Shown here: in pieces, positions 11,333-28,638 of the stretch | Layout: every line of letters starts with the position of its first letter | Position numbering within the stretch: position 1 is the stretch's first letter | DNA from: a virus | Length of the DNA: 46,990 bases | IMG/VR virus record: IMGVR_UViG_3300032180_000013 | Coordinates: 1 to 46,990 of that record | Reading direction: 5' to 3' (one strand) | The notes under the pieces: model-generated | What the model saw: the letters and a program-made list of their open reading frames with translations, nothing else | Told to the model about the DNA's origin: nothing | The model's database searches: none | Made by a program: the position numbers and the translations under genes

Positions 11333-11410
11333 CTGCCTCTTCCTTGCCAGCCATTCGCTAATCTTGATCAAAATTGGCCAAGCTTTGCCTGACCCACGGA
11401 CAGTTCTCAT
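11315..11410 (-). CDS. Possible small leader peptide before the guide array
   Basis: 31 residues (MRTVRGSGKAWPILIKISEW...), ATG 11410, with a weak purine-rich stretch (GAGGGAAAGGG) 8 nt upstream. It stops in the first degenerate repeat of the array. Basic and helical in appearance, no recognised family. It could be chance; the reading frame stays open upstream to 11548. Confidence 0.3.
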   Translation of the reverse strand: MRTVRGSGKAWPILIKISEWLARKRQETANS

Positions 11411-12076: not shown

Positions 12077-12086
12077 GTCGATCCTT

Positions 12087-12425
12087 TCATTTGAGTATTC
12101 TTACGATCTCATCCCAATCGGAGGGACGCCAAAAATACGTTTCGACGCCAGGAACCTCGGCCAAAGCCCATATCCAGGCATCTTGGGCGTCTGTTGACTT
12201 TCCTGAATCGGATTTCAGTTCAGCGAAGATCAAGCGGCGGCCACGCACCAACACAGAGTCAGGAAAGCCAGGATCGCCTATAAACGCCGTTCTCCAGCCC
12301 TTGAGGGTCCGGCCAGGGCGGAAGTGAACGAAGCGCCACCCGCACGCCCTTGCCAGTTGGCAGACTTTTTGTTGCAGCGACTCTTCCGACTCGGGCGGCA
12401 GCTCAGCGGCTCGGCTTGCTCTCAT
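12087..12425 (-). CDS. VRR-NUC family nuclease
   Basis: 112 residues. I chose ATG 12425 because AGGAG stands 8 nt before it; an in-frame start at 12446 lacks such a site. The restriction-endonuclease-like core is visible: SLQQKVCQLARACGW (start of the domain), GFPDSVLV around residue 56 (catalytic Asp) and FAELKSD around 69-71 (E-x-K), followed by QDAWIWAL. The size and motif order match stand-alone VRR-NUC proteins of phages, thought to cut structured or branched DNA during replication or recombination. Fits with the recombination genes of the same leftward cluster. Confidence 0.85.
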   Translation of the reverse strand: MRASRAAELPPESEESLQQKVCQLARACGWRFVHFRPGRTLKGWRTAFIGDPGFPDSVLVRGRRLIFAELKSDSGKSTDAQDAWIWALAEVPGVETYFWRPSDWDEIVRILK

Positions 12426-12496
12426 GGGTGGCTCCTCTCGCGCCAACTTCCGGGGCGGACGCGCGGATCATTTCCAAGGCCCGCTCCTTGGTTTCA

Positions 12497-12679
12497 TTAC
12501 GCGCATTGGGCAGGCTCCTCAATATGGGCCTTGTGGTGCAAGTAAATCTCCAGCAGCGTTTCGCAGACTTCCTTGAGCGCTTCATCCGGCATGGCCATAA
12601 GCTGCAAGTGCAAAGATGCTCGCCAATAATCAGCCGGCGTCGGCGGTCGCGGGTCGCCTGTGCCAATGATGGGTTTCAT
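12497..12679 (-). CDS. Hypothetical early protein (60 aa)
   Basis: ATG 12679 (MKPIIGTGDPRPPTPADYW) follows GAGGAGCCCGAA. A Pro-rich start, then an acidic helical segment (MPDEALKEVCETLLEIYLHH). No recognised family. It sits between the SWIM protein gene and the VRR-NUC gene in the same orientation. Confidence 0.6.
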   Translation of the reverse strand: MKPIIGTGDPRPPTPADYWRASLHLQLMAMPDEALKEVCETLLEIYLHHKAHIEEPAQCA

Positions 12680-12689
12680 TTCGGGCTCC

Positions 12690-13010
12690 TCACAACAACC
12701 CAAACGCTCTCAGCGCCGCACAATGTTTGCACGGCTCCGGCGCGTTTTGCCTTCGGAAAATAAAATCCTGACATGTGCAGGACCAGTGCCCGCGCTCAGT
12801 CAAGGCCACGTCGTAAACCTTGCCATCCTTTTGCTCAAGTCTCCATGCCTTCTTGGCTACTCCTGGATGCGGATCGTGCCGGCGAAGGCGGTAATAAGTG
12901 GCCTTGCGGCCAGCCGTAATTTTCAGGATCAAGGCGAACTCTGGCTGGGCTCGGGTTTTGGCAGCCTTGGCCGGTACGGTTGGTTGAGCAGTGCCAGGGT
13001 TTCTCTCCAT
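12690..13010 (-). CDS. SWIM-type zinc-finger protein
   Basis: 106 residues. ATG 13010 lies 6 nt after GAGGAG; a GTG two codons upstream is too close to that site. Residues 74-100 (HWSCTCQDFIFRR then PEPCKHCAAL) form the SWIM pattern C-x-C-x(n)-C-x-H, a zinc-binding fold used for nucleic-acid or protein contact. The N-terminus is Pro/Ala/Lys-rich. Small SWIM proteins are common in phage early regions. Its start overlaps the end of the zinc-ribbon gene upstream by about 80 nt. Confidence 0.8.
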   Translation of the reverse strand: MERNPGTAQPTVPAKAAKTRAQPEFALILKITAGRKATYYRLRRHDPHPGVAKKAWRLEQKDGKVYDVALTERGHWSCTCQDFIFRRQNAPEPCKHCAALRAFGLL

Positions 13011-13123
13011 TGCCACTCCTCATAACATCCTTTCCCGCAACAGTGGGCTTGGCGGCCGTATGGCCTCATCCCATCCATCTCACTGCGGCAGATAGGGCAG
13101 TAAACTTTCATGTAGCCGAACAT
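12929..13123 (-). CDS. Small zinc-ribbon protein
   Basis: 64 residues (from ATG 13123; ATG 13111, MKVYCPICRSEM, is an alternative). The pattern CPIC...CCGKGCYEEWQWRETL gives two Cys pairs, consistent with a zinc ribbon. It overlaps the SWIM gene by 82 nt in another frame. Likely a nucleic-acid-binding accessory protein; function unknown. Confidence 0.7.
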   Translation of the reverse strand: MFGYMKVYCPICRSEMDGMRPYGRQAHCCGKGCYEEWQWRETLALLNQPYRPRLPKPEPSQSSP

Positions 13124-13145
13124 GGGTCAGAGTCCTCCGGGTAGA

Positions 13146-13385
13146 TCAGGGTGAACTCGGGGGCGGATTGCTCGGGCACACCAAATAAACCGGCTGAACA
13201 ACGCATTTCAGTGCCGGGATCTTGTCGGGTCGCCAGCGCACGTAAGTTGCTCCACAGCCTTCCGGGCAACCGAACGGCTCCATCGCGTTTTCGGTCGCAA
13301 CGCCCAACTCGCCTGCGGCTCCGCACGAGCAGTTGAAATCGAAATAGTCAACGCCGTCCTCAGTGCGCAGGAATTTGTTGCTCAT
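13146..13385 (-). CDS. Hypothetical Cys-containing early protein
   Basis: 79 residues, ATG 13385 overlapping the upstream stop (ATGA coupling). Cysteines in FNCSCGAAGELGV, FGCPEGCGATYVRW, LKCVV and LVCPSN suggest a metal-binding zinc-ribbon fold. No function recognised. Part of the leftward early cluster. Confidence 0.7.
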   Translation of the reverse strand: MSNKFLRTEDGVDYFDFNCSCGAAGELGVATENAMEPFGCPEGCGATYVRWRPDKIPALKCVVQPVYLVCPSNPPPSSP

Positions 13386-13642
13386 GCGTCGAAGTCCTCA
13401 GGGGCCTCGCCAGTTTTGTGGCGCTTGGTTTGGTTTTCGCAAAATGCGGCAATCTCGCGCAGGCAGTCTTCCTCCCAGACGGTATTCGGTGCCGCGAAGA
13501 AGCAGTATTTTCTCCAGGGGCCGTACCATCCCACCGCCCCGATGTCGCCAGCGGCGGGCGGCGAATCGTTTGACCGGACACGCCAAACGCGCGTCTTGCC
13601 CGACTTTGATAGCCCACCATCCTTGAAAGTAATCCAGCTCAT
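13382..13642 (-). CDS. Hypothetical early protein (86 aa)
   Basis: ATG 13642 overlaps the stop of the upstream HNH-like gene. The pattern SKSGKTRVWRVRS...IGAVGWYGPWRKYCFFAAPNTVWEEDC looks like a small beta-sheet domain recurrent in phages as an uncharacterised protein. No catalytic motif. Translationally coupled on both sides. Confidence 0.72.
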   Translation of the reverse strand: MSWITFKDGGLSKSGKTRVWRVRSNDSPPAAGDIGAVGWYGPWRKYCFFAAPNTVWEEDCLREIAAFCENQTKRHKTGEAPEDFDA

Positions 13643-13992
13643 GCTACGTCCTCCTCAGCGGCCTCGCACTTCGGTCGCCGCAACAGCTCGTAAAGGTATT
13701 CCCAAATCTGGTCCTGCAACATGCCCTCGCGCCGCGCGATGATTGCCTGAATGTCGGCTGGGTGAATGCGTCCTTCGTGCGCCGCTTGGTGGCAACTCAC
13801 CCACAGGCCGCAATAGTACCCTCTGCATAAGCCAGCCAAGTTGCACGGCACGTCCAGCCTTGAGCCTCCGCCCATGCCGCGCTTGATGAAAGCGTGGTGT
13901 GGGTCCGTGCCGTCCGGCGTGGGCCGATTGCAATACTCGCACCGTTCCGAGCGGCGGAAGCGGTCCAGGCAAACTTCGTCAATGATTATCAT
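13639..13992 (-). CDS. HNH-like nuclease / zinc protein of the early cluster
   Basis: 117 residues, ATG 13992. Cys and His residues are placed as in small HNH nucleases: CEYCNRPTPDGTDPHHAF (zinc Cys pair and the HH of the active centre), CNLAGLC and CGLWVSCHQAAHEG (second pair and final His). Such proteins in phage recombination clusters may process recombination intermediates. Unlike the three HNH genes in the late region, it is embedded in the early operon and coupled to its neighbours, so it is probably a resident gene and not a homing element. The C-terminal half is helical and acidic. Confidence 0.7.
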   Translation of the reverse strand: MIIIDEVCLDRFRRSERCEYCNRPTPDGTDPHHAFIKRGMGGGSRLDVPCNLAGLCRGYYCGLWVSCHQAAHEGRIHPADIQAIIARREGMLQDQIWEYLYELLRRPKCEAAEEDVA

Positions 13993-14557
13993 GGCTCTCC
14001 GGCTTGACCATCGCCTGAAGCTCTTTTGTCGGTGCCGAGTTTGGCTTTACTTCCGCGCTTTCGTTTTCGTCGCCGTCGCCGTAGCTGTCGCCGTAGCCGC
14101 AGCCGTAACCGTAGCCGTCGCCGTCGCCGTAGCCGTCGCCGTAGCCGCAGCCGTAACCGTAGCCGTCGCCGTAGCCGTCGCCGTAGCCGCAGCCGTAACC
14201 GTAGCCGTCGCCGTAGCCGTAGCCGTAGCCGCAGCCGTAACCGTAGCCGTCGCCGTAGCTGTCGCCGTAGCCGCAGCCGTAACCGTAGCCGTCGCCGTCG
14301 CCGTAGCCGTAGCCGTAGCCGTAGCCGTAGCCGTAGCCGTAGCCGTAGCCGCAGCCGTAGCCGTAGCCGCAGCCGTAGCCGTTAGCATTTGCTGCCTTGC
14401 CGATGTACTCACCGGCTTCGCCGGTTCGGTAATCGGCGGTTAGTCCGGCAATAATTTTGCCGTGATTCAATACCCAGTCATTCACTCCATCGGGGCAAGC
14501 GCCGGTCTCCAAGATGTCAAAGACGCTCACCCGCTCGCGGTATTGCGTCCAAGTCAT
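13979..14557 (-). CDS. Gly-Tyr repeat low-complexity protein
   Basis: 192 residues; ATG 14557 lies 7 nt after GGAGG (a GTG/ATG at 14572 is too close to it). Residues 1-55 form an ordinary folded-looking domain (TWTQYRERVSVFDILETGAC). Residues about 60-165 are an almost pure dipeptide repeat of Gly-Tyr with interspersed Cys, Asp and Ser (units such as GYGYGCGYGDGYGDGYG). The C-terminus is charged. The repeat is encoded by a GGCTACGGC-type minisatellite, so length variation by slippage is expected. Gly-Tyr-rich chains are known for self-association; Cys at regular spacing could bind metal or crosslink. Function unknown. Confidence 0.8.
   Translation of the reverse strand: MTWTQYRERVSVFDILETGACPDGVNDWVLNHGKIIAGLTADYRTGEAGEYIGKAANANGYGCGYGYGCGYGYGYGYGYGYGYGYGDGDGYGYGCGYGDSYGDGYGYGCGYGYGYGDGYGYGCGYGDGYGDGYGYGCGYGDGYGDGDGYGYGCGYGDSYGDGDENESAEVKPNSAPTKELQAMVKPESHDNH
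14069..14391 (-). repeat. GCCGTA/GCCGTC minisatellite coding the Gly-Tyr repeat
   Basis: About 320 nt of 6-nt units (plus strand GCCGTA, GCCGTC, GCCGCA) with a strong Tyr/Cys/Asp wobble pattern. The most uniform run is 14300-14350 (consecutive GCCGTA). The opposite strand and other frames also stay open, but these are by-products of the composition. Confidence 0.9.
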
Positions 14558-14829
14558 TTTGCCGCCTCCCATTTTTCGACAGCGGCGGTAGTGACTTCAA
14601 AAATTGCCGTGACCTTTCGCAACTCAATGTCAGCACGGGCCGAGATTTTGCTGGAAGAGGTCGGCCCAGTCTCCGCCAGCTCCATGATGCCTCGGGTGGT
14701 CCCCCAGTAGATTGCCATGCGGGCGCGTTTCAGGTGGATTACATCGCCGCTGGTGTCGGCAGCGTAACCGAAGAACACGCCGCGAAACTCGGTGCAGACG
14801 ATCACAGGACGCTCATTTGCTTTAGCCAT
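14554..14829 (-). CDS. Hypothetical phage protein, DUF6948-like
   Basis: 91 residues, ATG 14829 behind AAAAGGAGACC. The pattern VIVCTEFRGVFFGYAADTS, ARMAIYWGTTRGIMELAETG and KISARADIELRKVTAIFEVT matches my memory of a family often labelled DUF6948, found in phages and prophages; the label is not certain. The stop overlaps the start of the Gly-Tyr gene (ATGA). Confidence 0.75.
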   Translation of the reverse strand: MAKANERPVIVCTEFRGVFFGYAADTSGDVIHLKRARMAIYWGTTRGIMELAETGPTSSSKISARADIELRKVTAIFEVTTAAVEKWEAAK

Positions 14830-14842
14830 TTGGTCTCCTTTT

Positions 14843-14861
14843 AATGTGTGGTGCCTAACTA
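14843..14861 (-). repeat. Early-gene junction repeat, copy 1
   Basis: AATGTGTGGTGCCTAACTA on the plus strand; on the coding strand TAGTTAGGCACCACACATT, starting with the stop codon of the 43-aa gene and ending just before the ribosome site of the next. 18 of 19 bases match 15008-15026. Confidence 0.7.
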
Positions 14862-14990
14862 AACTGAAAAAGAGCCGACCTCAATCCACTGAACGCCGGT
14901 GAGGCCGAAATCGACCCAGCCCGCCCAGCGAATCGGCACCTTGCCGTCGATGGTGAAACGCCACTCAACCGGCATAAGAACTCCAATCAT
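14859..14990 (-). CDS. Hypothetical short early protein (43 aa)
   Basis: ATG 14990 stands 5 nt behind AAAGGAGCGACC, an ideal ribosome site, and the gene ends at TAG 14859. The sequence MIGVLMPVEWRFTIDGK... has alternating hydrophobic/polar residues and four Trp, suggesting a small beta-sheet protein. No recognised family. Flanked on both sides by the 19-nt junction repeat. Confidence 0.65.
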   Translation of the reverse strand: MIGVLMPVEWRFTIDGKVPIRWAGWVDFGLTGVQWIEVGSFSV

Positions 14991-15007
14991 GGTCGCTCCT
15001 TTCGCTG

Positions 15008-15026
15008 AATGTGTGGTGCCCAACTA
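15008..15026 (-). repeat. Early-gene junction repeat, copy 2
   Basis: AATGTGTGGTGCCCAACTA, one base different from 14843-14861. On the coding strand it again begins with the TAG of the upstream gene and runs up to the next ribosome site. Confidence 0.7.
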
Positions 15027-15215
15027 CTCCCGCGCCGGCTTCGACAGGTCATCGAATATCCGCGCTAACACGTTGTCGATTTTGTTGCTCTGGTTCTCGA
15101 TGCGCCGCCACTTCCACTCCGCCTCTTCCCCGTTCCGGCTAATGAAGCCGTCGAGGCAGATTGAGCGCAGAACATGGCGGTACTTTTCGATAAACTCATC
15201 TCGGCTCGTGGGCAT
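15024..15215 (-). CDS. Hypothetical early protein (63 aa)
   Basis: I chose ATG 15215 (MPTSRDEFIEKYRHV) because AGGAGAG lies 6 nt upstream; the longer start at 15233 has no such site. Charged helical protein (EEAEWKWRRIENQSNKIDNV). No recognised family. Confidence 0.62.
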   Translation of the reverse strand: MPTSRDEFIEKYRHVLRSICLDGFISRNGEEAEWKWRRIENQSNKIDNVLARIFDDLSKPARE

Positions 15216-15504
15216 CCGTGCTCTCCTCGGCATGGCTGCGCTTGTTTGGCAGGATGTACGTCAAGTCCTCGCACTTCAGCCCCAAACTTCGTCCCGCCCA
15301 TTTCAACAACCGTTTCAACCTCTGCTCCCACGGCTCCGAGTGCGGCATGATTCGCAAAGTCACCTGGACCAACTCCGGTTCAGGCCCCGCGCCGGCTTGC
15401 GTCTGCCCAGCTACCGGCGCGGGGGAAGGTATCTTGCAGGCCGCCTTGGCTTCGGCGTACCAGTTGGGCGGCAGTTTGTACTGGTCGCGACGACGGCGGG
15501 TCAT
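15196..15504 (-). CDS. Hypothetical early protein (102 aa)
   Basis: ATG 15504 (MTRRRRDQYKLPPNWYAEAK) overlaps the upstream stop. A basic start, a Pro/Ala/Gly linker (PAPVAGQTQAGAGPEPE), then a folded-looking part (PHSEPWEQRLKRLLKWAGRSLGLKC). The end overlaps the next gene by 20 nt. Function unknown. Confidence 0.65.
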   Translation of the reverse strand: MTRRRRDQYKLPPNWYAEAKAACKIPSPAPVAGQTQAGAGPEPELVQVTLRIMPHSEPWEQRLKRLLKWAGRSLGLKCEDLTYILPNKRSHAEESTDAHEPR

Positions 15505-15965
15505 GTCTTCCTCGGAAATGGCCTTTGGGGAGCTTCGGCTTCATCGGCATCAAGCACGATGCGCATTGGGCCTCGCTCATCCTCCAGGCCGAAGTTAAAG
15601 ACTCCCTTGGGCACACACCACAGATAGAAGCGATTCGATGGATCACGCAACCGAGACTCGGCTGGGTACAGTTCGACCGCTTCCCATTCGTCGCCGAGCA
15701 GGGCGTTCTTCAGTTGCTGAAAGTCTCGCCAGTCATGCCGCGACGTCTCGTCGATTGACGAAATGGAAATCGTTGCCCAGGGTCCGCCGCCAATTGGGAA
15801 GCCGGAAGGATAGTCCTTCACGCATCCATAGTAAGTATCGTTTTCCCACTGCTGTCCCCATTCGGTAAGCGAGCCGTAGCGGATCTTGCCCAGCTCAAAG
15901 CTTGAGCGTTCGAGGTGAAAGAACACCTTGCCGTCATCGCTGACGCACTTTTGGCGGTGGGTCAT
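15501..15965 (-). CDS. Phage family DUF7694-like protein
   Basis: 154 residues, start ATG 15965 (MTHRQKCVSDDGK) overlapping the stop of the upstream gene (ATGA). The central segment SRHDWRDFQQLKNALLGDEW and AVELYPAESRLRDPSNRF, followed by RGPMRIVLDADE, is a conserved pattern I associate with an uncharacterised family seen in many phage early regions (I believe DUF7694). No catalytic motif. Confidence 0.72.
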   Translation of the reverse strand: MTHRQKCVSDDGKVFFHLERSSFELGKIRYGSLTEWGQQWENDTYYGCVKDYPSGFPIGGGPWATISISSIDETSRHDWRDFQQLKNALLGDEWEAVELYPAESRLRDPSNRFYLWCVPKGVFNFGLEDERGPMRIVLDADEAEAPQRPFPRKT

Positions 15966-16780
15966 GTCTTCTTCCTCGCTGGGCAGCACAGATGGTGATT
16001 CCGATATAACTCGCTTGTGTCGGCTTCGGGATCGTACTTCACATGTTCCGCCCGGTTGTCCTTGCCGATCCTGAATTGGCCTCCGCCAGGCTCGGCGTTG
16101 AGCGGCATTCGCTTCCCCTTCTGCGTGGTCACCCACAGGATTTCCGCTTTGCAGAATTTGCACTTCCCCTTGGAAGCCGAGGGCGCTGGCTTTGTCGGCG
16201 CGGCATGGAGCAGCTTGTAGTTGACGGCGAGCATTTCGAGTCCTCGATAGGCTGCGTCAACGACTCCGGGCTTTGCGGCCTTGGTTTTAGCCAACATTTC
16301 CAGGTCTTTGCGGTACGCCTTCTCGGTTGCCGCGATGCGTTTCTCGTAGGGCTCGGGTTGGTCAAGGCCGGCATCCTCACGCGGCTCCGATTGCCGCATG
16401 GCCGCACAGTCCTTGCAACTTTTCTTCGGGCCGTTCAGCCGGCAGGACCGACAGTAGGTTTCGGAGGCCCAATTAAGCGCCTCGACAACTCCCATATTCT
16501 CCACTGAAGATAAGTGGACACGCAGGATCTCCCAATTATCGTCAACCCGCATGAGTCGGTGCGCTGTGCTACGCGGGATGTCCGTAGTATCAAGCTCCGG
16601 CAGCCAAGCTTTGCCTTCGGCAACGCATTGGTTTTTGAGCAAGTTCAGTTCCGCGCCAATGGCCCTCATTTGCTCAATGGTCAGGCGAATCTGGCGGGCG
16701 TACATTCCCCTAATCCTGGACTGGCGGTCCTTGATAGAGGTTGCCTTGCGTACTTCCGCTGGGGGATCGAGGGGATTCAT
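15962..16780 (-). CDS. DUF3102-like protein with C-terminal zinc ribbon
   Basis: 272 residues. ATG 16780 (MNPLDPPAEV) lies behind AAGGAGCAAAAGG; an upstream in-frame start has no site. Residues 20-85 (IRLTIEQMRAIGAELNLLKN ... STAHRLMRVDDNW) resemble DUF3102-type helical domains of phage regulatory or plasmid-maintenance proteins. A Cys cluster follows (YCRSCRLNGPKKSCKDCAAM), then a Lys-rich linker and a C-terminal zinc ribbon (CKFCKAEILWV ... KRMPLN ... CCPARK). Possibly a DNA-binding regulator; the assignment is by pattern only. Confidence 0.7.
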   Translation of the reverse strand: MNPLDPPAEVRKATSIKDRQSRIRGMYARQIRLTIEQMRAIGAELNLLKNQCVAEGKAWLPELDTTDIPRSTAHRLMRVDDNWEILRVHLSSVENMGVVEALNWASETYCRSCRLNGPKKSCKDCAAMRQSEPREDAGLDQPEPYEKRIAATEKAYRKDLEMLAKTKAAKPGVVDAAYRGLEMLAVNYKLLHAAPTKPAPSASKGKCKFCKAEILWVTTQKGKRMPLNAEPGGGQFRIGKDNRAEHVKYDPEADTSELYRNHHLCCPARKKT

Positions 16781-17174
16781 CCTTTTGCTCCTTCTTCGGA
16801 GGCACATAGTCCTTGGGTGGACTGATTTGCTCTTCTTCCTCTACGTGGCCTTCCAGGGTTTCACGTTCGGGCGGGCGATATTTCGGGCGCGGGTCGAGTT
16901 CGGTTTCTCGCTTGCGGTCGAGAAACGGTAGCCAGTGCTCCGGCAAATCTTGCAGCCGTCGCCAGCCCGTCTCGCCGACAAGTCTCCAGCCGGTGCAGCC
17001 GACAGGAATCCGCGGAACAACGTGCGCTGCATCCGTTTTGCCGCTGGTGCCGATGTAACGCACAGGCCGGCGCGGCAGGCAGGGCAAGACGACAATGCGG
17101 GTCATCCTGCCGCCAACTATAACCCCGCCCAGGCGGTACTCAAGCATATGTGGCAAGTCGTCGGGGAATTTCAT
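16710..17174 (-). CDS. Hypothetical early protein with charged tail (154 aa)
   Basis: ATG 17174 overlaps the upstream stop (ATGA coupling). Residues 1-90 look folded (PHMLEYRLGGVIVGGRMTR), with CTGWRLVGETGWRRLQDLP near 60-78. Residues 90-154 are Glu/Pro/Lys-rich and disordered. The last 71 nt overlap the next gene in a different frame. No family recognised. Confidence 0.62.
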   Translation of the reverse strand: MKFPDDLPHMLEYRLGGVIVGGRMTRIVVLPCLPRRPVRYIGTSGKTDAAHVVPRIPVGCTGWRLVGETGWRRLQDLPEHWLPFLDRKRETELDPRPKYRPPERETLEGHVEEEEQISPPKDYVPPKKEQKDESPRSPSGSTQGNLYQGPPVQD

Positions 17175-17395
17175 CTCCCCTCCGGGTCCATCTGGTCAGC
17201 GGCCCAGCGAGCGGCCACCAGCAGTTTCATTTGCGCCAGGCGCTCGGGTGTTACCTGGGACGGATCGCCTTCCGCGCGGATCTCGGCCCGGCAAGTGTCG
17301 CATTCCCAATAATGCTTGCCGACTGCGGCGCGCTCGGCAACCGTCGCCCGCAAGAATCCTCTTTTGATAACTTCTTTGCACTCGGCGCAGGTCAT
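17171..17395 (-). CDS. Small zinc-finger-like protein (74 aa)
   Basis: ATG 17395 (MTCAECKEVIKRGFLR) after GGGGAGCCGCCCAC. Two Cys pairs, CAEC and CDTC with His before the second (HYWECDTC), look like a zinc ribbon of about 40 residues, followed by a helical tail. Coupled to both neighbours by 4-nt overlaps. Confidence 0.7.
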   Translation of the reverse strand: MTCAECKEVIKRGFLRATVAERAAVGKHYWECDTCRAEIRAEGDPSQVTPERLAQMKLLVAARWAADQMDPEGR

Positions 17396-17613
17396 GTGGG
17401 CGGCTCCCCTATGTTTTTGCATTCGTTGAGGATGAAGTTCATTGCGAAGTCTACGTCTACTTGTGCCGACGATTTGTTTTCCATAGCGAACCGCCAAATT
17501 TGCAAGAAGGAACCTGCGGGCAAGGTAACGAGTAAAGCCAGCAAGCCATTGGCGAGGCTTTTGGCTTCTTCCTCATTGAGTTTGTCGATCAGTAGTCGCG
17601 CTTGGTTTTTCAT
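17392..17613 (-). CDS. Hypothetical early protein (73 aa)
   Basis: ATG 17613 (MKNQARLLIDKLNEEEAKSL) overlaps the upstream stop. Almost entirely helical; a hydrophobic stretch (LANGLLALLVTLPAGSFLQIW) could be a buried helix or a weak membrane segment. No recognised family. Confidence 0.65.
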   Translation of the reverse strand: MKNQARLLIDKLNEEEAKSLANGLLALLVTLPAGSFLQIWRFAMENKSSAQVDVDFAMNFILNECKNIGEPPT

Positions 17614-17813
17614 GAGCCGACTCGAACCTCCATGACATTCGGCGGTATGGCGTATTGGCGAAAGTTGGTTGACATTGGATGCCGGCTGATGACGCGGACC
17701 CCGGGTCCATCCATGCCGCACACGGTTGCGATCAGCTGGCCGTTATAGGTGACTTCGATTACATATTCGCCGTCGATCTCCAGGTGCGGGTTTAATTCGA
17801 GTTTGCTTTTCAC
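17610..17813 (-). CDS. Hypothetical early protein (67 aa)
   Basis: Start GTG 17813 (KSKLELNPHLEIDGEYVIEV) 5 nt behind GGAGGCGCAAC and overlapping the stop of the exonuclease gene. The sequence predicts a small beta-barrel. Position directly after the recombination nuclease suggests, but does not show, an accessory role. Confidence 0.65.
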   Translation of the reverse strand: MKSKLELNPHLEIDGEYVIEVTYNGQLIATVCGMDGPGVRVISRHPMSTNFRQYAIPPNVMEVRVGS

Positions 17814-18493
17814 GTTGCGCCTCCGGTCACTTCCGCAATGGCTGCCTTGAGTGTTTCGGTCAGCGGCCGATCCTCGATCTGGGCAAGCAAGTCCTGATAG
17901 CGCTTCCAAAACATTTCGAGCGCGTCTTTGAGCTTCTCGGTGTAGGCGTCGCGCGTGACATGCACGATGGTTGACTTGCTCGCGTTCCACGGGCAGTAAG
18001 AGATAAGGTCCCAGAACTCCAAGGCCGGCTCGATAGCAAGCGGGCCATGTGCCTGCGGTCGATGGTCCTCAGCGAAGCCGCCCTTCAGGAGGTAGCGGAT
18101 TAGCGCCTTGGGTTCGTGGCACTTGATTTCCAAACCGCCGTAGTAATTGCCGTGTTTATTCTTAAGTAGCCCATCCGGCGAAAAGCCGAATCGCCCGCAG
18201 TCAGAAATGCACAGCCCAACTTGATGCACATCGCAATTGGTCTGGAGTTCGTACCAGCCACGGGCTTCGGCTTCGAGTTGCAGGCCGCGCTCGCCGGCGC
18301 GGGACACATGGCCGTTAGTCACGGGCTCGCCGCTTAGTTTCTCGCCCAGGAGTTCGCAGATCAGTTCATCGGCCGAAGCGGACAGTTTGCCGGTTTTGGG
18401 CGTGATGATCTTGTCAAAACGGGAGGCAGTTGCTAGACCGCGGCGAGCTTCGAGCCATTCGCGGGAGCCCTGTTGGCATTCGATGATCTTCAT
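17810..18493 (-). CDS. YqaJ / lambda-exonuclease family recombination nuclease
   Basis: 227 residues from ATG 18493 (MKIIECQQGSREWLEARRG), overlapping the upstream stop. Family motifs in order: QGSREWLEARRGLATASRFD (residues 8-27, substrate-binding start of the domain), GERGLQLEAEA (68-78, metal-ligand Glu), FGFSPDGLL (103-110, Asp107), LEIKC (121-125, E-x-K) and EDHRPQAHG (142-150, catalytic Gln of the family). These form the PD-(D/E)xK active site of 5'-3' exonucleases that make single-stranded ends. Its partner annealing protein (ERF) is encoded just upstream, a classic phage two-gene recombination system. Confidence 0.92.
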   Translation of the reverse strand: MKIIECQQGSREWLEARRGLATASRFDKIITPKTGKLSASADELICELLGEKLSGEPVTNGHVSRAGERGLQLEAEARGWYELQTNCDVHQVGLCISDCGRFGFSPDGLLKNKHGNYYGGLEIKCHEPKALIRYLLKGGFAEDHRPQAHGPLAIEPALEFWDLISYCPWNASKSTIVHVTRDAYTEKLKDALEMFWKRYQDLLAQIEDRPLTETLKAAIAEVTGGAT

Positions 18494-18702
18494 GTGGGCC
18501 TCGATTCTGGAAGGGCGATTGATTCGTCCAAACCCCAATCGACGGTTTCGAGCTTTACGCGAATGACGCAGCGCGAGCCAAGCACAACCTCGAATCCATC
18601 GGGGTTGACCTTGCGAATTTCGCGGATGACGGCGATGTCGCGCATCTTGTCCACCATTGCGGCAAGAGCGCCGGCCATGAAAGCTTGCATCGGGTGTTTC
18701 AC
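18490..18702 (-). CDS. Hypothetical early protein between ERF and exonuclease (70 aa)
   Basis: Start chosen at GTG 18702, which overlaps the TGA of the ERF gene (GTGA), giving VKHPMQAFMAGALAAMVDKM. The N-terminal half is helical, the C-terminal half beta-like (FEVVLGSRCVIRVKLETV). Its place inside the recombination pair suggests co-translation; role unknown. Confidence 0.65.
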   Translation of the reverse strand: MKHPMQAFMAGALAAMVDKMRDIAVIREIRKVNPDGFEVVLGSRCVIRVKLETVDWGLDESIALPESRPT

Positions 18703-19478
18703 GAGCCTGCCTTCTTCCCGTTCTTCCTCTCGGTCGGCCATCTGTAGTTGGCGCACGCTTTCTCGAATTGCGCCCGGGTTACGGCTCCCAGGTGTTCGGC
18801 CCCGAGCCATTTCAAGAAGCGATCCAACGGAATCTTGTGTGTGCGAACTTGCTCGCCGAGATAGTCGGATAACTCCTGGGTGATGTAGGCGTTCGCCGAG
18901 TTGCCATCGTTGTCCTCGTCCGTCTCGGCCAAGTTGAAAATGTTCTTTGCGAGGTAGCGCCGCGCGTAGGAATAGGTTGAGCCCGTGCCCTGAAGCGCGG
19001 TCATGATGGCCTTTTCCTGTTGAGCGGATTTGCCGTCGCGAGGGAAGTCGCCTTGATAGCGTTCCTTGTGCCCTGCTTTATGGCGCACGTCGCAGAAGAT
19101 GCGCAGCATGCCCGATTCGACGGGCAGCGGTTCCTCTCCGAACGAGAGGCTGAAGCCGTGCTTGGAATAGATGGGACGGATTATCTCGTTGAGCCCTTCG
19201 TAGCTCGCGTACTTCTTGCCGGTTCGGCTGTTGTCCTTGTCGCGGACAATACCCGGCATCTCGGCCTGGCAAGTGTTCATCGCTTCGGCGTACGCCTGGC
19301 TCGCCTCATCGGCTTTCATGCTCCTGTATAGCTCGAAATACTCGCGCAGCTCGGCCGGCGCCAACTTGGCGTTGAGCGCGTGCTGGATTATTTCGAGCGG
19401 CGAGCGCAGAGTGATCGGGTGTTGCTCCAGGTCGTCGGTGACGCGCACCGATTCGGTTTCTGTGTCTGTAATCGTCAT
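18699..19478 (-). CDS. erf: ERF-family single-strand annealing protein
   Basis: 259 residues, ATG 19478 behind AAAGGAAGTGGAGT. The hallmark ERF core is visible: MPGIVRDKDNSRTGKKYASY near residues 74-93, the following NEIIRPIYSKHGFSLSF, and QGTGSTYSYARRYLAKNIFN near 160-180 with an acidic DEDNDGN. Proteins of this family coat single-stranded DNA and promote annealing in phage recombination. The last 60 residues contain a small C-terminal helical domain ending in a basic tail. Paired with the exonuclease downstream. Confidence 0.92.
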   Translation of the reverse strand: MTITDTETESVRVTDDLEQHPITLRSPLEIIQHALNAKLAPAELREYFELYRSMKADEASQAYAEAMNTCQAEMPGIVRDKDNSRTGKKYASYEGLNEIIRPIYSKHGFSLSFGEEPLPVESGMLRIFCDVRHKAGHKERYQGDFPRDGKSAQQEKAIMTALQGTGSTYSYARRYLAKNIFNLAETDEDNDGNSANAYITQELSDYLGEQVRTHKIPLDRFLKWLGAEHLGAVTRAQFEKACANYRWPTERKNGKKAGS

Positions 19479-19705
19479 ACTCCACTTCCTTTTGCGTAAT
19501 CGCCGGCCACTTTCTGGTTAGTTTTCGGCGAAAAAGTCACAGTGAACTCATCGCCCAACTCAGTGTTGTCTGGAATCAGAAAGCCTAAGATCCTGATGTC
19601 TTTGGCCATTGCATCGGCCTGTAGGAAATGCAGCGTTACCCGTGGCAGCCCGTCCGAGAATTGGCTGCCGTGATGCACGGCGATTATTTTGCAGGTCAGG
19701 GTCAT
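19475..19705 (-). CDS. Hypothetical early protein (76 aa)
   Basis: ATG 19705 (MTLTCKIIAVHHGSQF) stands 7 nt after GGAGGT and the gene overlaps the ERF start (ATGA). The strongly beta-like sequence suggests a small OB or beta-barrel fold (VTLHFLQADAMAKD, GDEFTVTFSPK). Possibly an ssDNA-related partner of the recombination pair; this is inference from place only. The reading frame continues upstream to 19981 without a stop, but the ribosome site decides the start. Confidence 0.65.
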   Translation of the reverse strand: MTLTCKIIAVHHGSQFSDGLPRVTLHFLQADAMAKDIRILGFLIPDNTELGDEFTVTFSPKTNQKVAGDYAKGSGV

Positions 19706-19914
19706 CGAGATACCTCCAAAAAAAATGTTAACCCCCGTCGCCCGAATCGAACGGGCTGTTCGGCCGCTCTCTTCGCCCGGCATGTCTCTTGCGCTATAGT
19801 CGGTGAGCACCATGACGGACTCGCGGCTCTGCACCAGCACGGGGTAAAACAGCGGCCGGGTCCTCGCATACACCCTGGCCGCGTAAACCGCCTTCCAGCG
19901 CGGAGGCGGAATTT

Positions 19915-20181
19915 CTAGCGGCGCGGCAGCCAGCTCGCTACAGCCAGCCAGGCTTTGACTTTTTCTTTGCTGCCCCAGCATTGGGCCGGCAGATCGTTGT
20001 AGATGTACAGAGCGATCTCCTGGAGCTGTTGCAGGCTGTTATCATCGGCCCGGCAAACGGCTTCCATGAAATTGTTTTCCAGAGCGAACGATAGAAAACC
20101 GCCGCACTCAATATGATCCCGCGCGTAGCGGTCGAGGGATTCTTTCAGTTTCGGATCAAGATTTTTCAAGTCTCTGGACAT
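19915..20181 (-). CDS. Hypothetical early protein (88 aa)
   Basis: ATG 20181 behind AGGAGAACCC. Helical, acidic protein (LKESLDRYARDHIECGGFLS, NSLQQLQEIALYIYNDLPAQ). Similar short phage proteins are common but unnamed to me. The 209 nt between its stop and the next gene's start hold no gene I can support. Confidence 0.68.
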   Translation of the reverse strand: MSRDLKNLDPKLKESLDRYARDHIECGGFLSFALENNFMEAVCRADDNSLQQLQEIALYIYNDLPAQCWGSKEKVKAWLAVASWLPRR

Positions 20182-20190
20182 GGGTTCTCC

Positions 20191-20532
20191 TCAAAAAGGC
20201 AGTTCCGGATTATCGGGCAGCGCGGGCTGGTTTCGCGCTGCCTCGTCAATTTCGCGCATCAACTCTTGCATGTTTTTTCTCCCCTGCTCATGCAACCCCC
20301 AATCGGCCCAGGCTTCGGGATCTTCGCAATAGGAGAGCATGCAGGTTTCGCAAACGCCTTTGGTGGCGTGCAGGCAGGCCGGTGTAACGGCGCGGCGCTC
20401 GGCCAAGTCTTCGAGCCATTCCTCGATTTCGCGCTGGATCGCTTCGGCGAGGCCCTGTACGTCGGGCAGGTCGTGTGGATGGTCGGCCAGGAAGTGCGCG
20501 GCCAGGTCGTAGCTTTTTTGGTCAACGCTCAT
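20191..20532 (-). CDS. Hypothetical early protein (113 aa)
   Basis: ATG 20532 overlaps the upstream stop by 4 nt. Acidic helical protein with a Cys pair region (KGVCETCMLSYCEDPEAW) that might bind a metal. It ends DNPELPF, an acidic/hydrophobic tail of a kind seen on phage DNA-handling proteins that dock to partners; whether it works that way here is unknown. Confidence 0.65.
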   Translation of the reverse strand: MSVDQKSYDLAAHFLADHPHDLPDVQGLAEAIQREIEEWLEDLAERRAVTPACLHATKGVCETCMLSYCEDPEAWADWGLHEQGRKNMQELMREIDEAARNQPALPDNPELPF

Positions 20533-20975
20533 CGCATGCTCTCCTCCAGGGCTTGTTTCAGCGGAATTGCCTCGCCGCTAGGACTGCCCTCAGAATCAGT
20601 ATTGTGCACGTAGACTTCAGGATCGTTCTCGCGCTTGCCGCAAACAACGACGTAGACATATTCAAGATCGCCGGGGTAATCGAGAATGACACCTACGCCG
20701 AGTTGGTTGAGAGGATGGTCTTCCCCCGGATATCGTTTGTGCCATTCGCTGTTCGCGTATTTGAGAGTCAGCCAAATGATGAATTTTGCCGCCAGGTAAG
20801 TGGGATCATCAAATCGAGTGTCGCCGTGCTTGGCGCATGCTTTTACGTCCTGGAAGAATTTTAAAAGATCAGCGCCAGCGCCGTTAGGGTAGCCGTCCGA
20901 ATGACGGTACACAAGCGCTAGCTTATCCTGATGATTCTTTGTGTGACCAAAGGCAATTGCGCATCGCGTGCTCAT
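20529..20975 (-). CDS. Hypothetical phage protein (148 aa, MSTRCAIAFG type)
   Basis: ATG 20975. The beginning MSTRCAIAFGHTKNHQDKL and ALVYRHSDGYPNG is a pattern I have met in phage proteins of unknown role (a beta start, then a conserved H-S-D-G-Y-P). The middle EDHPLNQLGVGVILDYPGD and EYVYVVVCGK are beta-rich. No catalytic centre is recognised. Confidence 0.7.
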   Translation of the reverse strand: MSTRCAIAFGHTKNHQDKLALVYRHSDGYPNGAGADLLKFFQDVKACAKHGDTRFDDPTYLAAKFIIWLTLKYANSEWHKRYPGEDHPLNQLGVGVILDYPGDLEYVYVVVCGKRENDPEVYVHNTDSEGSPSGEAIPLKQALEESMR

Positions 20976-20981
20976 GGATAG

Positions 20982-21197
20982 TCATTTCTCGTTGATGATG
21001 GGCTCGGGGTCCGGGTCGTAATCGCGCTCGGGTTTGGGCAAACGTCCGCTGCCGTCGCAAGGCTCGCACTTCGTCCATTCAGTGAACGGGAAGTACGACC
21101 GCTTGCCTGAGCCGTCGCAATCCGGGCAATCTTCGCCGTCATCGTCGTTTGGTCCGCCTGGGCCAGCCATCACCCAGGAGTCATAATCGAGTCCCAT
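20982..21197 (-). CDS. Small DnaJ-type zinc-knuckle protein
   Basis: 71 residues from ATG 21197 (MGLDYDSWVMAGPGG) with GGAGCAAGCT upstream. Two CxxCxGxG-like motifs, CPDCDGSGKR and CEPCDGSGRL, 19 residues apart, can bind one zinc ion as in the cysteine-rich domain of DnaJ. The N-terminus is acidic and Gly-rich, the C-terminus Asp/Pro-rich. A host-chaperone or RNA-related role is possible but unproven. Confidence 0.75.
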   Translation of the reverse strand: MGLDYDSWVMAGPGGPNDDDGEDCPDCDGSGKRSYFPFTEWTKCEPCDGSGRLPKPERDYDPDPEPIINEK

Positions 21198-21246
21198 AGC
21201 TTGCTCCAAAAAAGCGGGGCATCCGTGCCCCGTCCCAGCAGGAGAT

Positions 21247-21471
21247 TCAACGCCGCTGCCAGCCGCCCGGAACCCGACGCAACCGGCCGTAGCCACGATA
21301 GACCTGATCTTGCAAGACAGTGCCTCCCGTACTCAGGCTACCTGGCGAAAAATCCCTTTTGGTCGGCGGAGGTTTTTTGGCCGGTACAGGTTTGGCGGGT
21401 TTTTTCTCCCCAGCCGTTGCCGCAAATACGATCAAGAGCGCCAGAATCGGTCCAAACAGAAGTCGCCACAT
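21247..21471 (-). CDS. Small secreted or membrane-anchored Lys/Pro-rich protein
   Basis: 74 residues from ATG 21471 (MWRLLFGPILALLIVFAATA), 8 nt after GGAGG. The first 21 residues are a clear signal peptide or single membrane helix; then a Lys/Pro-rich linker (EKKPAKPVPAKKPPPTKR) and a short Gly/Arg tail. It could act in the host envelope (exclusion or lysis control). No family. Confidence 0.7.
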   Translation of the reverse strand: MWRLLFGPILALLIVFAATAGEKKPAKPVPAKKPPPTKRDFSPGSLSTGGTVLQDQVYRGYGRLRRVPGGWQRR

Positions 21472-21552
21472 AAAGGATTCCTCCAGGGGCGAAAGAAAAA
21501 GAACGCTGGGTAGATGTTGCCGAAAAGGGCATCCGTGCCCCTGCTTCATATC

Positions 21553-22596
21553 TCAGGCCCACGTCTTGGCGGGCAGTTGGAACACCTCGCCGCCGATTGC
21601 TTCCAACTCGGTTGCACGGTCGTAGCTCTCGACGTCTTGGCTGGCTCGGGTGATCGCGTTCCCCAGGCCGAACGCGGAAAGGTCGTGTCCCTCGATCAGG
21701 TGTTTGAGGACAGAGCCCTTTTCCCCGTCCGTGAAGCTGAACCGCTTGGCGGCCACTTCCAGGACCTCGGTAATGTCCTCAGGCAGTTGCTCGCCGGCTG
21801 CGCGGCGCATGGTCAGCAATTGCTTGTCGAGACGTTCCTGGGTGAGCACACCGGCTACCGTGTCCTGTACGGACATGAAGAAAGCTTTGTCGTTAGCCTG
21901 GCGCGTGGCGTCCGTGAAATACTCACGGGCATCCTCGATCAATTCATCCCCGCCGACTCGGCCGCCGACATGAGCGCGGCGGGTGACTTGCTCCATGATC
22001 GCGCCGTTAAGGCACACCAGGCGATAGGTGAGCGCGGCAACCTGCAAGCGCCCTTCGCCGATCTCCGAATTGCTCACCAGCAAACCGGCCTGGACTGTAT
22101 CGCCCTTGGCGACGTCGCCGCGGACTCGCTCCGTAGTTGCCTTCAGGTATAGCCGGCGTTCGGTAACGTCGCCGCTTAGGACCGTGGCGCCCAGGGCGGT
22201 CAGCTTGGGCAGGACGGTCTCGGCCAAGTCAAGGTTGTCGAGCGGCCGAAAGCGGTCGGAAAGAATCGCGCGAACCCCGCCGTCCAAGGTACGAATCATC
22301 TTCTTCGCCGGCTGCGCTTGCAGCCAGTGATTGGCGTTCCGGGCCAAGAGGTCCGGCGCCTGGGCGAGCATGCGGTCGTAATAAGGTTTCGGGATTTGCA
22401 GCGTGGCGCTGAGCTGCTGATGGGCGGTCTGCCGCAGGGGCATGCCGCCGTTTACTCCGTCCATGATGATCGGCGCCGAAGCGTCCGGCGTGGCCCGCAA
22501 GGACAGTCGCCGGGTATCGGCGATATAGTCCTTTTTGCTCTTGGCCTGGCGTTCGAGTTCGGTCGCAAGTTCGACTAATGTACGTCCACTTTTCAT
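21553..22596 (-). CDS. DUF932 phage/plasmid-like protein
   Basis: 347 residues. I prefer ATG 22596 (MKSGRTLVELATELE), 9 nt after GAAGGG, over an ATG at 22605 that sits on the site. The sequence follows DUF932: TAHQQLSATLQIPKPYYDRM, NHWLQAQPAKKMIRTLDGGV, RAILSDRFRPLDN, then the beta-rich VQAGLLVSNSEIGEGRLQVA and YRLVCLNGAIM. DUF932 proteins are common in phages and plasmids; no biochemical role is established to my knowledge. It has its own promoter and a long structured leader, so its expression seems specially controlled. Confidence 0.85.
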   Translation of the reverse strand: MKSGRTLVELATELERQAKSKKDYIADTRRLSLRATPDASAPIIMDGVNGGMPLRQTAHQQLSATLQIPKPYYDRMLAQAPDLLARNANHWLQAQPAKKMIRTLDGGVRAILSDRFRPLDNLDLAETVLPKLTALGATVLSGDVTERRLYLKATTERVRGDVAKGDTVQAGLLVSNSEIGEGRLQVAALTYRLVCLNGAIMEQVTRRAHVGGRVGGDELIEDAREYFTDATRQANDKAFFMSVQDTVAGVLTQERLDKQLLTMRRAAGEQLPEDITEVLEVAAKRFSFTDGEKGSVLKHLIEGHDLSAFGLGNAITRASQDVESYDRATELEAIGGEVFQLPAKTWA

Positions 22597-22771
22597 TGGG
22601 AACATCCCTTCAAAACAGGAACAGTTGCCGCGCCTGGAACAGCCAGGCAGACCGGCGGAGATCGCGGCAAACCCACCGCACGGGTGCGCCTTGGCGGGAT
22701 AGGATGGGCCGCCCGTGGGTGAGGTTTGCTCGTATTTTGGTCGCTGGGTAGACCCGCCAAGGTCTTTCAGG
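22597..22771 (-). ncRNA. Structured 5' leader RNA of the DUF932 gene (pseudoknot-capable)
   Basis: About 175 nt between the predicted transcription start (~22771) and the DUF932 start. Coding-strand pairings by eye: A = CCTTGGCGGG (22762-22753) with CCCGCCAAGG (22698-22689), 10 of 10; B = GCAAACC (22729-22723) with GGTTTGC (22673-22667), 7 of 7. Their order A-B-A'-B' is a pseudoknot. Also a hairpin GCCTGG/CCAGGC (22648-22643 with 22637-22632) enclosed by TTGCCGCG/CGCGGCAA (22670-22663 with 22632-22625), which shares bases with B', so two exclusive folds are possible. It ends 28 nt before the start codon. Could be a riboswitch-like, protein-binding or thermosensor leader; two open frames across it are an alternative explanation. 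Confidence 0.6.
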
Positions 22772-22777
22772 TCCGCA

Positions 22778-22807
22778 AGTATAGATCACAATGCGGGCAC
22801 TTGTCAA
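22778..22807 (-). promoter_or_regulatory. Sigma70-type promoter for the DUF932 gene
   Basis: On the minus strand TTGACA (22807-22802), 18-nt spacer, TATACT (22783-22778). The -35 is a perfect match and the -10 five of six to the bacterial consensus. It lies in the gap after the 70-aa gene (stop 22858) and points to the DUF932 gene. Confidence 0.8.
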
Positions 22808-22857
22808 ATGGAATTTTTGTCGGTCTACTCGCTGGATGCGTTTGCTCTCAAATCAGC

Positions 22858-23070
22858 TCAGGTTGCATCTATTTCGACAGCTTCCGCAGCAGTTGGCCGT
22901 TCATAACCTAAGCGTTCAAGCCATCCCGTCAAGAACACTCCTCCTGACTTGTGGTAGCCTGGATAGCTTGCGACATCGGCCTCTAGATTGCGCCCCTCAG
23001 GCTCCGCTAATAAATCGGCGCTAGCATCTGACCAATCCCCGCCGCTGGTAATCAGCACGATTCGCCTCAC
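22858..23070 (-). CDS. Hypothetical early protein (70 aa)
   Basis: GTG 23070 (RRIVLITSGGDWSDASADLL) with GGGGGAGATGGTCCC upstream; its start overlaps the upstream stop (GTGA). The start looks like a beta-alpha unit (IVLITSGGDWSD), the end acidic. No family recognised. Confidence 0.65.
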   Translation of the reverse strand: MRRIVLITSGGDWSDASADLLAEPEGRNLEADVASYPGYHKSGGVFLTGWLERLGYERPTAAEAVEIDAT

Positions 23071-23515: not shown

Positions 23516-23956
23516 CTACCCCAAACCCCCAAAACCTGTCAAATCGCGGCCTGGAAGCGTTCCGGCGGCCCTCTGGCGGGGATCTGAGCCACACCACCGG
23601 GGGGATTGAGGCGGAGGTTGGGGGAGTTGAACCCCGCTCTCTTGTTGAACTTGCGACGATTTTGGCTCTACAGTTTTTGGACGTTTTGGGCAGACTTCGC
23701 AGTCACGGATGCCGAGTCGTATGCAGCGGTCGAGGCAATGTGGTTCAGTAATAGATGGGGGTATTTCAGGGCGGTTTGTATTTACAATTGGCGGAGTTGG
23801 CGGGTTTTGGACTGAGTTGGGAGATTCTGTTGGTTTTTTGTCAATACACCTGCTGAGGACGAATTTGGAGAGGTCCAGACCGCAAGCTTCGGCTCCCATT
23901 CTCACGAGGGTTTTTTCTTCTTCGGAGCAGCGAACGATGAGGAAGGTGGTCTTCAT
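23516..23956 (-). CDS. Ribbon-helix-helix-like regulator, first gene of the leftward cluster
   Basis: 146 residues, ATG 23956. Residues 1-38 (MKTTFLIVRCSEEEKTLVRM, AEACGLDLSKFVLSRC) have the beta-strand plus two-helix shape of MobC/Arc-type ribbon-helix-helix DNA-binding domains. The rest is Pro/Ser/Gln-rich and disordered, with a Cys cluster (CLDRC, RDCEVC). It faces the rightward genes across a 52-nt gap, where a regulator would be expected. A role in repressing either direction is inference. Confidence 0.68.
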   Translation of the reverse strand: MKTTFLIVRCSEEEKTLVRMGAEACGLDLSKFVLSRCIDKKPTESPNSVQNPPTPPIVNTNRPEIPPSITEPHCLDRCIRLGIRDCEVCPKRPKTVEPKSSQVQQESGVQLPQPPPQSPRWCGSDPRQRAAGTLPGRDLTGFGGLG

Positions 23957-26874: not shown

Positions 26875-28638
26875 ATGGCGATGCAGCGCTCGCGGCTGGT
26901 CCTGCGCCGCTACCGCGAGAACCGCCGCGAAGCCGTAAGGCAGATGGTCGGCTTCCACTGGTCCGAAGAAGGCTCCAAGCAAACCGTTCCCGTCAACCTG
27001 ATCGCCCAGTACGTCGGTATCGTCGGCCCGAAGCTGATCGCCAAAGCGCCGCGCGTCAGCCTCTCCACTTTCGATCGCGCTCACAAAGCCACGGTCAGCG
27101 CTTGCCAGTCCTGGGCCAATAAAGAGATTGAAGACCTGCGCCTGGCCAACACCTACCAGCGCGTGGTGCTCGATGCGCTCTTCTCCATCGGCGTCTTGAA
27201 GGTCGCGCTGGGCACTCCCGCCGATGCCGCGCGCATGTCGTGGACCCTCGGGGCCGGCAGCGTCTTCGCGGAGCGCGTCGATCTTGATGATTTTGTCTTC
27301 GACATTCACGCCCGGGATTTCCAGGAAGTGAGCTTCATCGGCCACCGCTTTCGTGTGCCGCTGGAGGCAATCCGTGACTCGAAAATCTACTCGAAAGCGC
27401 GCAAGGAACTCGAACCATCCTACGACCCGCCCTACAACCTGGAAGGAGATGAACGAATCAGCCTGCTCGGTCGAACGTACCTTGGAGTCGATACGGAAGA
27501 ATTTGAGGACGCTGTTGACCTCTGGGAAGTGTACCTTCCCAGGCACAGGCTCGTGCTTACTCTGGCGGATGATTCGCTTACTGGACCGTCAGGCACGGGA
27601 GCTGGAGGCCCTAAAGATCCTCTGCGAGAGCAGCGCTGGCTCGGTCCCGACAGCGGACCCTACCATGTGCTCGCTTACGGCCTGGTGCCGGGGAACGTTA
27701 TGCCGAAATCGCCGGTGATGGATCTGATCGACCAGCACCTCTTCGCCAACAACTTGTACCGCAAACTGATGCGCCAGGCCGAGCGGCAGAAAGATAACCT
27801 GTGGATCTCCGGCGGCGCCGACGCGGACGGCAACAGGATTGTCAACGCGGACGACGGCGAAGCCTACAAGGTCGATAACCCCGAGAAGATCCGGCCGACG
27901 AGTTTGGGCGGTCCGAATCAATCGCTATTGGCGATGTTCCAGCAGAATTATGATTTGTTCAATCGCACGGCCGGCAACCTGGAGCTGATGGGCGGCACGG
28001 CACCGCAAAGCCGGACGTTGGGCCAGGACAAGATGCTCAACGCCAATGCCAGCGGCTTGATTCAGGAAATGCAGGAGACGACGACCAACTTTGTGTCGGC
28101 GAGTTTGAAGGCCATGTGCTGGTACTGGTGGCACGATCCGTACAAGGTCATGCGCACCACGCATTCATTGCCGGGTATGCCTGAGTTTTCGATTCCCCGC
28201 CGCGTGCATCCGGCTGAGCGGCAGAAGGTCAACTTCGCTGATCTGGACATCCGCGTCGATCCTTACTCGACCCGCGCCAAGAGCCCGGAAGAGCGATTGC
28301 AGCAGATGAACATGGTCGTGACCCAGATTGTGATTCCCATGATGCAGTTGCTGGTGCAGCAGGGGATCAACTTCGACATGAACGCGTATCTCCAGAAGGT
28401 CGGCCAGTACCTCGACATGCCGGACCTGGCGGACATCCTCACGATCATGGAGCCGCCGGAGCAGGACTCACCTTCGGCGGGCGGGCATGGGCGGACCATG
28501 CCGCAATCCACAAGCCGGAGTTATGAGCGGCACTCCTCCGGAGCAGCCTCAAGATATGGGATGGATTTAGGTCGGATCAACGCAATGAAGCCGAATGGAC
28601 AGAACGGGACGCCGCAGCCTTCTGGGATGGGACAATGA
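26875..28638 (+). CDS. Portal protein
   Basis: 587 residues from ATG 26875 (MAMQRSRLVLRRYRENRREA); the frame is open upstream to 26830, so the start is uncertain. The N-terminus with YRENRREAVRQMVGFHW and PVNLIAQYVGIVGPKLIAKA, the middle AYGLVPGNVMPKSPVMDLID, LFANNLYRKLMRQAERQKDN and the helical NLELMGGTAPQSRTLGQDKM are the typical path of podovirus-type portals, the dodecamer at the capsid vertex through which DNA enters and leaves. Family length is usual. The last 60 residues are low complexity. It follows terminase, and the next gene overlaps by ATGA. Confidence 0.88.
   Translation: MAMQRSRLVLRRYRENRREAVRQMVGFHWSEEGSKQTVPVNLIAQYVGIVGPKLIAKAPRVSLSTFDRAHKATVSACQSWANKEIEDLRLANTYQRVVLDALFSIGVLKVALGTPADAARMSWTLGAGSVFAERVDLDDFVFDIHARDFQEVSFIGHRFRVPLEAIRDSKIYSKARKELEPSYDPPYNLEGDERISLLGRTYLGVDTEEFEDAVDLWEVYLPRHRLVLTLADDSLTGPSGTGAGGPKDPLREQRWLGPDSGPYHVLAYGLVPGNVMPKSPVMDLIDQHLFANNLYRKLMRQAERQKDNLWISGGADADGNRIVNADDGEAYKVDNPEKIRPTSLGGPNQSLLAMFQQNYDLFNRTAGNLELMGGTAPQSRTLGQDKMLNANASGLIQEMQETTTNFVSASLKAMCWYWWHDPYKVMRTTHSLPGMPEFSIPRRVHPAERQKVNFADLDIRVDPYSTRAKSPEERLQQMNMVVTQIVIPMMQLLVQQGINFDMNAYLQKVGQYLDMPDLADILTIMEPPEQDSPSAGGHGRTMPQSTSRSYERHSSGAASRYGMDLGRINAMKPNGQNGTPQPSGMGQ

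Follow-up and report, generated by a model that had tools for sequence, protein, structure and literature searches.

A covarying leader RNA with candidate alternative pairings behind the leftward early promoter of related uncultured phages

The leftward early operon of an uncultured phage, represented by a 46,990-nt stretch of viral DNA (IMG/VR record IMGVR_UViG_3300032180_000013, positions 1 to 46,990; hereafter the window), is preceded by a putative untranslated leader in which the loop of a local hairpin (P1) can pair with a 10-nt segment (A') exposed in the loop of a second, longer hairpin (P2). The same layout was found behind TTGACA promoters in five related uncultured phages, giving five distinct sequences in six loci; as read from their letters, these share the promoter-like sequence, P1, the A/A' helix and P2, with compensatory changes in P1 and A/A'. 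The pairing itself is well supported, and the fold is genuine, without a counterpart in RNA databases: no Rfam family matched at the gathering score, in line with the novelty suggested in a first-pass annotation of this DNA, and with a lax limit (cmscan to E = 10) the only hit, to a miRNA model, scored far short of the gathering limit and lay on the opposite strand. We propose, with a probability of roughly 0.4, that the leader is a cis-acting two-state RNA element that would control elongation or termination in the early operon, as put does in phage HK022.

The element lies on the minus strand (the first-pass annotation had given no strand), and its parts are listed in Table 1. The promoter pointed out earlier proved to be the top promoter-like site on either strand of positions 8000-22900; judged from its -10 box, transcription would start at about 22771. 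An AAGGG sequence is found at 22610-22606, 9 nt upstream of the likely DUF932 start. The perfect 10-bp helix described earlier was recovered as well: A comprises the P1 loop plus the two closing pairs of P1, and A' is exactly complementary to all of it. These two segments are the only exact copies of the 10-mer in the window. The reported order A-B-A'-B' also holds behind the promoter, as A, the 5' arm of P2, A' and the 3' arm of P2. The interlaced 7-bp helix is present, but as the outer part, at the base, of the 17-bp P2 stem (7+4+6 bp with two single-base bulges), and the nested hairpin thought to compete with it is not kept in the relatives; the conserved alternative pairing is P1, which excludes the ends of the A/A' helix. 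The MFE z-score of the leader fold against shuffles is -2.6 in the window and likewise -2.6 in its relative L002.

Table 1. Features of the leader and the operon behind it, in window coordinates.
Feature	Position	Strand	Remark
Sigma-70-type promoter of the leftward early operon, TTGACA (22807-22802)-N18-TATACT (22783-22778)	22778..22807	-	11/12 matches
Untranslated leader	22597..22771	-	inferred from promoter position
Local hairpin P1, AGACC-UUGGCG-GGUCU	22750..22765	-	two outer pairs covary
A, CCUUGGCGGG, 5' strand of the long-range 10-bp helix (22762-22753 with 22698-22689)	22753..22762	-	
A', CCCGCCAAGG, 3' strand of the long-range 10-bp helix, within the P2 loop	22689..22698	-	
P2, 17-bp hairpin whose loop holds A' (22729-22712 with 22684-22667)	22667..22729	-	
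3' hairpin GCCUGG-CUGUU-CCAGGC ahead of the ribosome-binding site	22632..22648	-	
DUF932 / phrog_1362 protein, first gene of the operon here, varying among relatives	21553..22596	-	
Intrinsic-terminator-like hairpin CGGGGCACGGATGCCCCG + CTTTTTT within this operon, ahead of the Erf and exonuclease genes	21205..21232	-	

A protein search with DUF932 identified one close viral relative (L002), and a search with a capsid-like protein added nine more viral records. The L002 leader differs from that of the window at many places: CCUUCGCCGG/CCGGCGAAGG replaces CCUUGGCGGG/CCCGCCAAGG, the 17-bp P2 has another sequence, and cross-pairing between the two leaders is much weaker. The G002 leader, 74% alike over its best stretch of 134 nt, carries the pair CCUUGGUCGG/CCGACCAAGG and the P1 hairpin GAAACC-UUGGUC-GGUUUC, while that of G006 follows TTGACA-N18-TATTAT and carries CCUGGCAGGG/CCCUGCCAGG with the P1 hairpin GUCC-UGGCAG-GGAC. 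Scanning the viral_contigs set for the promoter plus the 5' half returned 25 stretches, only four of which had the exact partner strand: the record of L002, G002, and two further loci, L190 (genome G014; CCUUGGCCGG/CCGGCCAAGG) and L192 (genome G015), the latter with the same element as G002 ahead of a different first gene. In all relatives TTGACA and a -10-like hexamer lie upstream and a long hairpin of different sequence occupies the P2 position. The geometry is constant, with A 38-46 nt past the start of TTGACA, a gap of 42-55 nt between A and A', and A' in the loop of the long hairpin. Spacings between the parts differ by non-multiples of three, so that a conserved reading frame, which would have turned the leader into a gene, does not explain the element.

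A window-type terminase, about half identical, is encoded in G001, G002, G006, G014 and G015. It is also present in G005 and G009, where no element matched the strict descriptor (CC-N6-GG, P1 with 4 bp or more, and an exact complement 30-120 nt further on), and no such leader was found in the terminase relatives L040-L042. The searches revealed no close cultured relative of the capsid or the terminase, and all members are uncultured. Exact-sequence scans gave no match for the P2 arm and only L002 for the start-codon block; the loop pattern gave 26 chance matches in genome_contigs, all without the partner strand. At position 6688 (plus strand) of G005 (the record of L131), in L155, a similar layout comprises a larger P1-like hairpin (CTCGCCCGGCC..GGCCGGGCGAG) with 9 loop nucleotides (CCGGGCTTG) complementary to the loop of the next hairpin (CACCGCC..GGCGGTG), both directly ahead of a ribosome-binding site and ATG; from its letters, this is a possible divergent seventh member.

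The proposal of a structured leader RNA with alternative pairings, for which a covariation test had been suggested, was supported by that test. In the alignment used for the pair counts, which joins the P1/A and A' blocks by artificial spacers and leans towards structure because it was read off the sequences by pairing partner, all 60 of 60 cells of the outer P1 and A/A' pairs (exact letters, five distinct sequences) are paired, and 7 of the 12 pairs have changes on both sides; both outer P1 pairs (2/2) and 5/6 loop positions change together with their partners. The covariation score is 0.55 versus 0.145 in shuffles, and at most 0.125 when slid; none of 500 shuffles reached this or any other of the measures. 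Four bases, CC and GG, pair in P1 as well as in A/A', and none of them varies in the sequences (5/5). That these double-duty bases are fixed, while single-helix positions vary with their partners, would be expected if both pairings matter; in five related sequences this is suggestive of, and not proof for, two alternating folds of one RNA. Among 4000 dinucleotide shuffles of the window leader, 40 contained any 10-bp perfect inverted repeat at that range and none contained the motif itself, a hairpin with CC-N6-GG together with the complement. With all six leaders shuffled, 4000 times each, the descriptor arose 0, 0, 0, 0, 0 and 1 times, and 1.1 Mb of fetched sequence, to which L190 and L192 were added later and read separately, contained it only at element loci and in one palindrome.

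The leader had also been proposed as a possible RNA class of DUF932 genes, preceding a small phage gene, and neither part of this holds. The first gene in the window encodes 347 aa (likely start 22596); it matches phrog_1362 (E = 2e-50), its homologues are annotated as DUF932, and its Pfam score for DUF932 (PF06067) is 22.4 bits against a gathering cut-off of 23. The first 59 residues are shared by L002 (92% identical), after which the gene is cut off. Other genes follow the element in the remaining relatives: an unknown ORF in G006, small zinc-ribbon-like or unknown ORFs in G002 and G015 (with no DUF932 recognisable in the G002 record), and in G014 an ORF that, judged by eye, is ParB-like. 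Upstream of about 88 other DUF932 homologues (some 80 viral ones with 39-53% identity and 8 from plasmids or phages) the pseudoknot is absent, and among the leaders of the roughly 80 homologues only those of the window and L002 stand out for interlaced helices. Since the element is kept without a constant DUF932 gene and is absent at other DUF932 loci, it is a leader of the early operon in one phage group, not an element of the DUF932 gene. The predicted structure of the DUF932 protein (pLDDT 91.7) had no PDB match below E 0.07 in Foldseek and none with Z above 5.1 in VIA-align, a result that does not show a new fold; the fold therefore gives no hint of RNA binding.

Several side observations concern DUF932 loci. 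The first 182 nt of the DUF932 region (window 22434-22615) are 87% identical to G001 27461-27642, in a genome that is elsewhere mostly 65-80% identical to the window and has lost the rest of the gene. Very strong hairpins lie right before the ribosome-binding site of many DUF932 genes (e.g. L055, L107, L092, L103 and L008), with z below -3 in 19/85 DUF932 upstream regions versus 15/153 control gene starts. In an unrelated DUF932-bearing phage (L063, 3888-4030, plus strand), a hairpin lies behind a TTGACA promoter, and its loop pairs over 9 nt with that of a 10-bp hairpin that ends with TTTTTT ahead of the ribosome-binding site, the same layout as that of the element but with a true terminator.

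According to the proposed cis-acting model, P1 would form immediately upon transcription. Once about 60 nt more have been made, A' would emerge in the P2 hairpin and pair with the P1 loop; the closing pairs of P1 would open, and the 10-bp helix would be locked inside P2 as an H-type pseudoknot. We infer the transcription start, this order of folding and the two-state behaviour, and a fixed pseudoknot may form instead, without switching. The first gene changes among relatives while promoter and element stay, which argues for an action on the transcript or the elongating polymerase, and hence on termination or elongation through the early operon, not on the translation of one gene. We prefer an effect on elongation or termination on three grounds: the element goes with the early promoter, it does not depend on which gene comes first, and terminator-like hairpins lie inside the operon behind it with no other good promoter between. 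In the two operons read at length, strong hairpins of this type lie ahead of the Erf gene, at +1595 (window) and at +200 and +2240 (L002), and no other good promoter was found on the operon strand between the leader and the Erf gene. Terminator-like hairpins are not enriched on the operon strand, being equally common on the opposite one, and the antitermination part therefore rests on these two operons. It also counts against an effect on elongation or termination that the window, G006, G014 and G015 have no terminator-like hairpin between the element and the first gene, and that each genome scanned has one copy of the descriptor, with none for a rightward operon, versus two put sites in HK022. 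A bolder version of the cis-acting model, which we consider doubtful, would make these self-kissing early leaders the first set of members of a new class of phage RNA switches, in which the double-duty bases would switch between a U-turn hairpin and a pseudoknot and so allow or halt the whole early operon, with A/A' setting self/non-self specificity among related phages.

Further features were observed in the window. A GGGCACGGATGCCC hairpin with T-runs occurs twice on the minus strand, behind DUF932 (21540-21523) and before the next gene (21232-21205). A 688-aa ORF (8965-11031, minus strand) contains an IS110-type Transposase_20 region near its end and has no counterpart in the co-linear relative G001, and a small ORF (23516-23956, minus strand) is weakly similar to MobA/MbpA proteins of plasmid mobilisation (E about 3e-4, a match far short of the cut-off).

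The leader might instead act in trans, as the antisense CI RNA of phage P4 or c4 RNA of phages P1/P7 do, which appears unlikely. P2 would be cut out as a small RNA and its A' loop would pair with A of newly made leaders, either stopping early transcription or providing feedback or immunity with a specificity set by the A/A' sequence. The P1 loop of all variants bears a YUNR motif of the U-turn type (within UUGGCG in the window), a feature described for antisense target loops, and most relatives have an A/A' of their own, with five sequences among the six loci. The layout of promoter, A, and A' in a stable hairpin equals that of seqA followed by CI RNA in P4 (PMC4825925). However, none of the six leaders has a downstream complement of at least 6 bases to A', where P4 has seqC in addition to seqA; the window proteins that were scanned included no recognisable integrase or repressor, and intramolecular pairing would be favoured over intermolecular pairing.

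That the structure starts within about 10 nt of the inferred start, is very stable and is independent of the first gene would suit a 5' end that shields the early mRNA from host ribonucleases without any switching. A plain hairpin would be enough for this purpose, leaving the long-range A/A' helix and the frozen double-duty bases unexplained, and we regard this function as improbable. That the element controls only the first gene, through translation or attenuation, has a rather low probability as well: in G015, G006 and G014 the distance from the end of P2 to the start codon is about 18-35 nt, and in L002 the counterpart of the 3' hairpin, just before the start codon, ends with a U-tract and is terminator-like, but this U-tract is absent from the other relatives, the element ends at least 70 nt before the start codon in the window and L002, and the first gene differs in nearly every relative. 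An element acting as DNA, either paired repressor operators or a single-strand structure at an origin, is very improbable. A and A' are inverted copies of one 10-mer, and two operators would change together too; yet neither the window nor the L002 genome has more exact copies that could serve as repeated operator sites, A' is not in a palindrome, the position behind the promoter is fixed, and the outer P1 pairs and P2, which are no copies of A, keep pairing with changed sequence as well. Finally, chance pairing in a G+C-rich leader, compatible with a lone 10-bp inverted repeat in about 1% of shuffles, is refuted for P1, A/A' and P2 by compensatory changes across six loci.

To our knowledge, protein-independent RNA control of a phage early operon has been described for very few systems (HK022 put and P4 CI RNA), and a further such element, its pairing backed by compensatory changes and each base of its layout specified, would show early-operon RNA leaders to be more widespread. 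Little besides the promoter and the rule of pairing is conserved in such elements, and RNA searches that rely on sequence therefore miss them. The leader of T4 gene 32 also has a pseudoknot near the 5' end of a phage mRNA, where it nucleates binding of the first gene's own protein, whereas the first gene behind the present element is not constant. In c4 RNA of phages P1/P7, too, a phage transcript begins with a structured RNA of the antisense type, whose targets lie downstream of it; the c4 model (RF01695) gave no covariance-model match with cmscan to E = 10. The immunity region of P4 contains seqA, CI RNA with seqB, and seqC (PMC4825925). Like the present element, it is an untranslated early leader in which an upstream segment is complementary to the exposed segment of a downstream hairpin; unlike P4, the six leaders searched have no second target of the seqC type, and no gene for lysogeny was recognised. 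The excerpted text of PMC9378689 describes put of HK022 as a sequence-conserved element of about 70 nt with two stem-loops, present at two sites per genome (putL and putR, for the leftward and rightward operons), which acts without dependence on the first gene and makes RNA polymerase terminator-resistant via the zinc-binding domain of beta'. The present element is longer (about 110 nt), was found in one copy, is hardly conserved in sequence, and has a 10-bp A/A' helix, while no long-range loop-loop helix is reported for put in that excerpt. It shares with put, as portrayed there (PMC9378689), the position directly behind an early phage promoter, independence of the first gene, two stem-loops, and terminators downstream.
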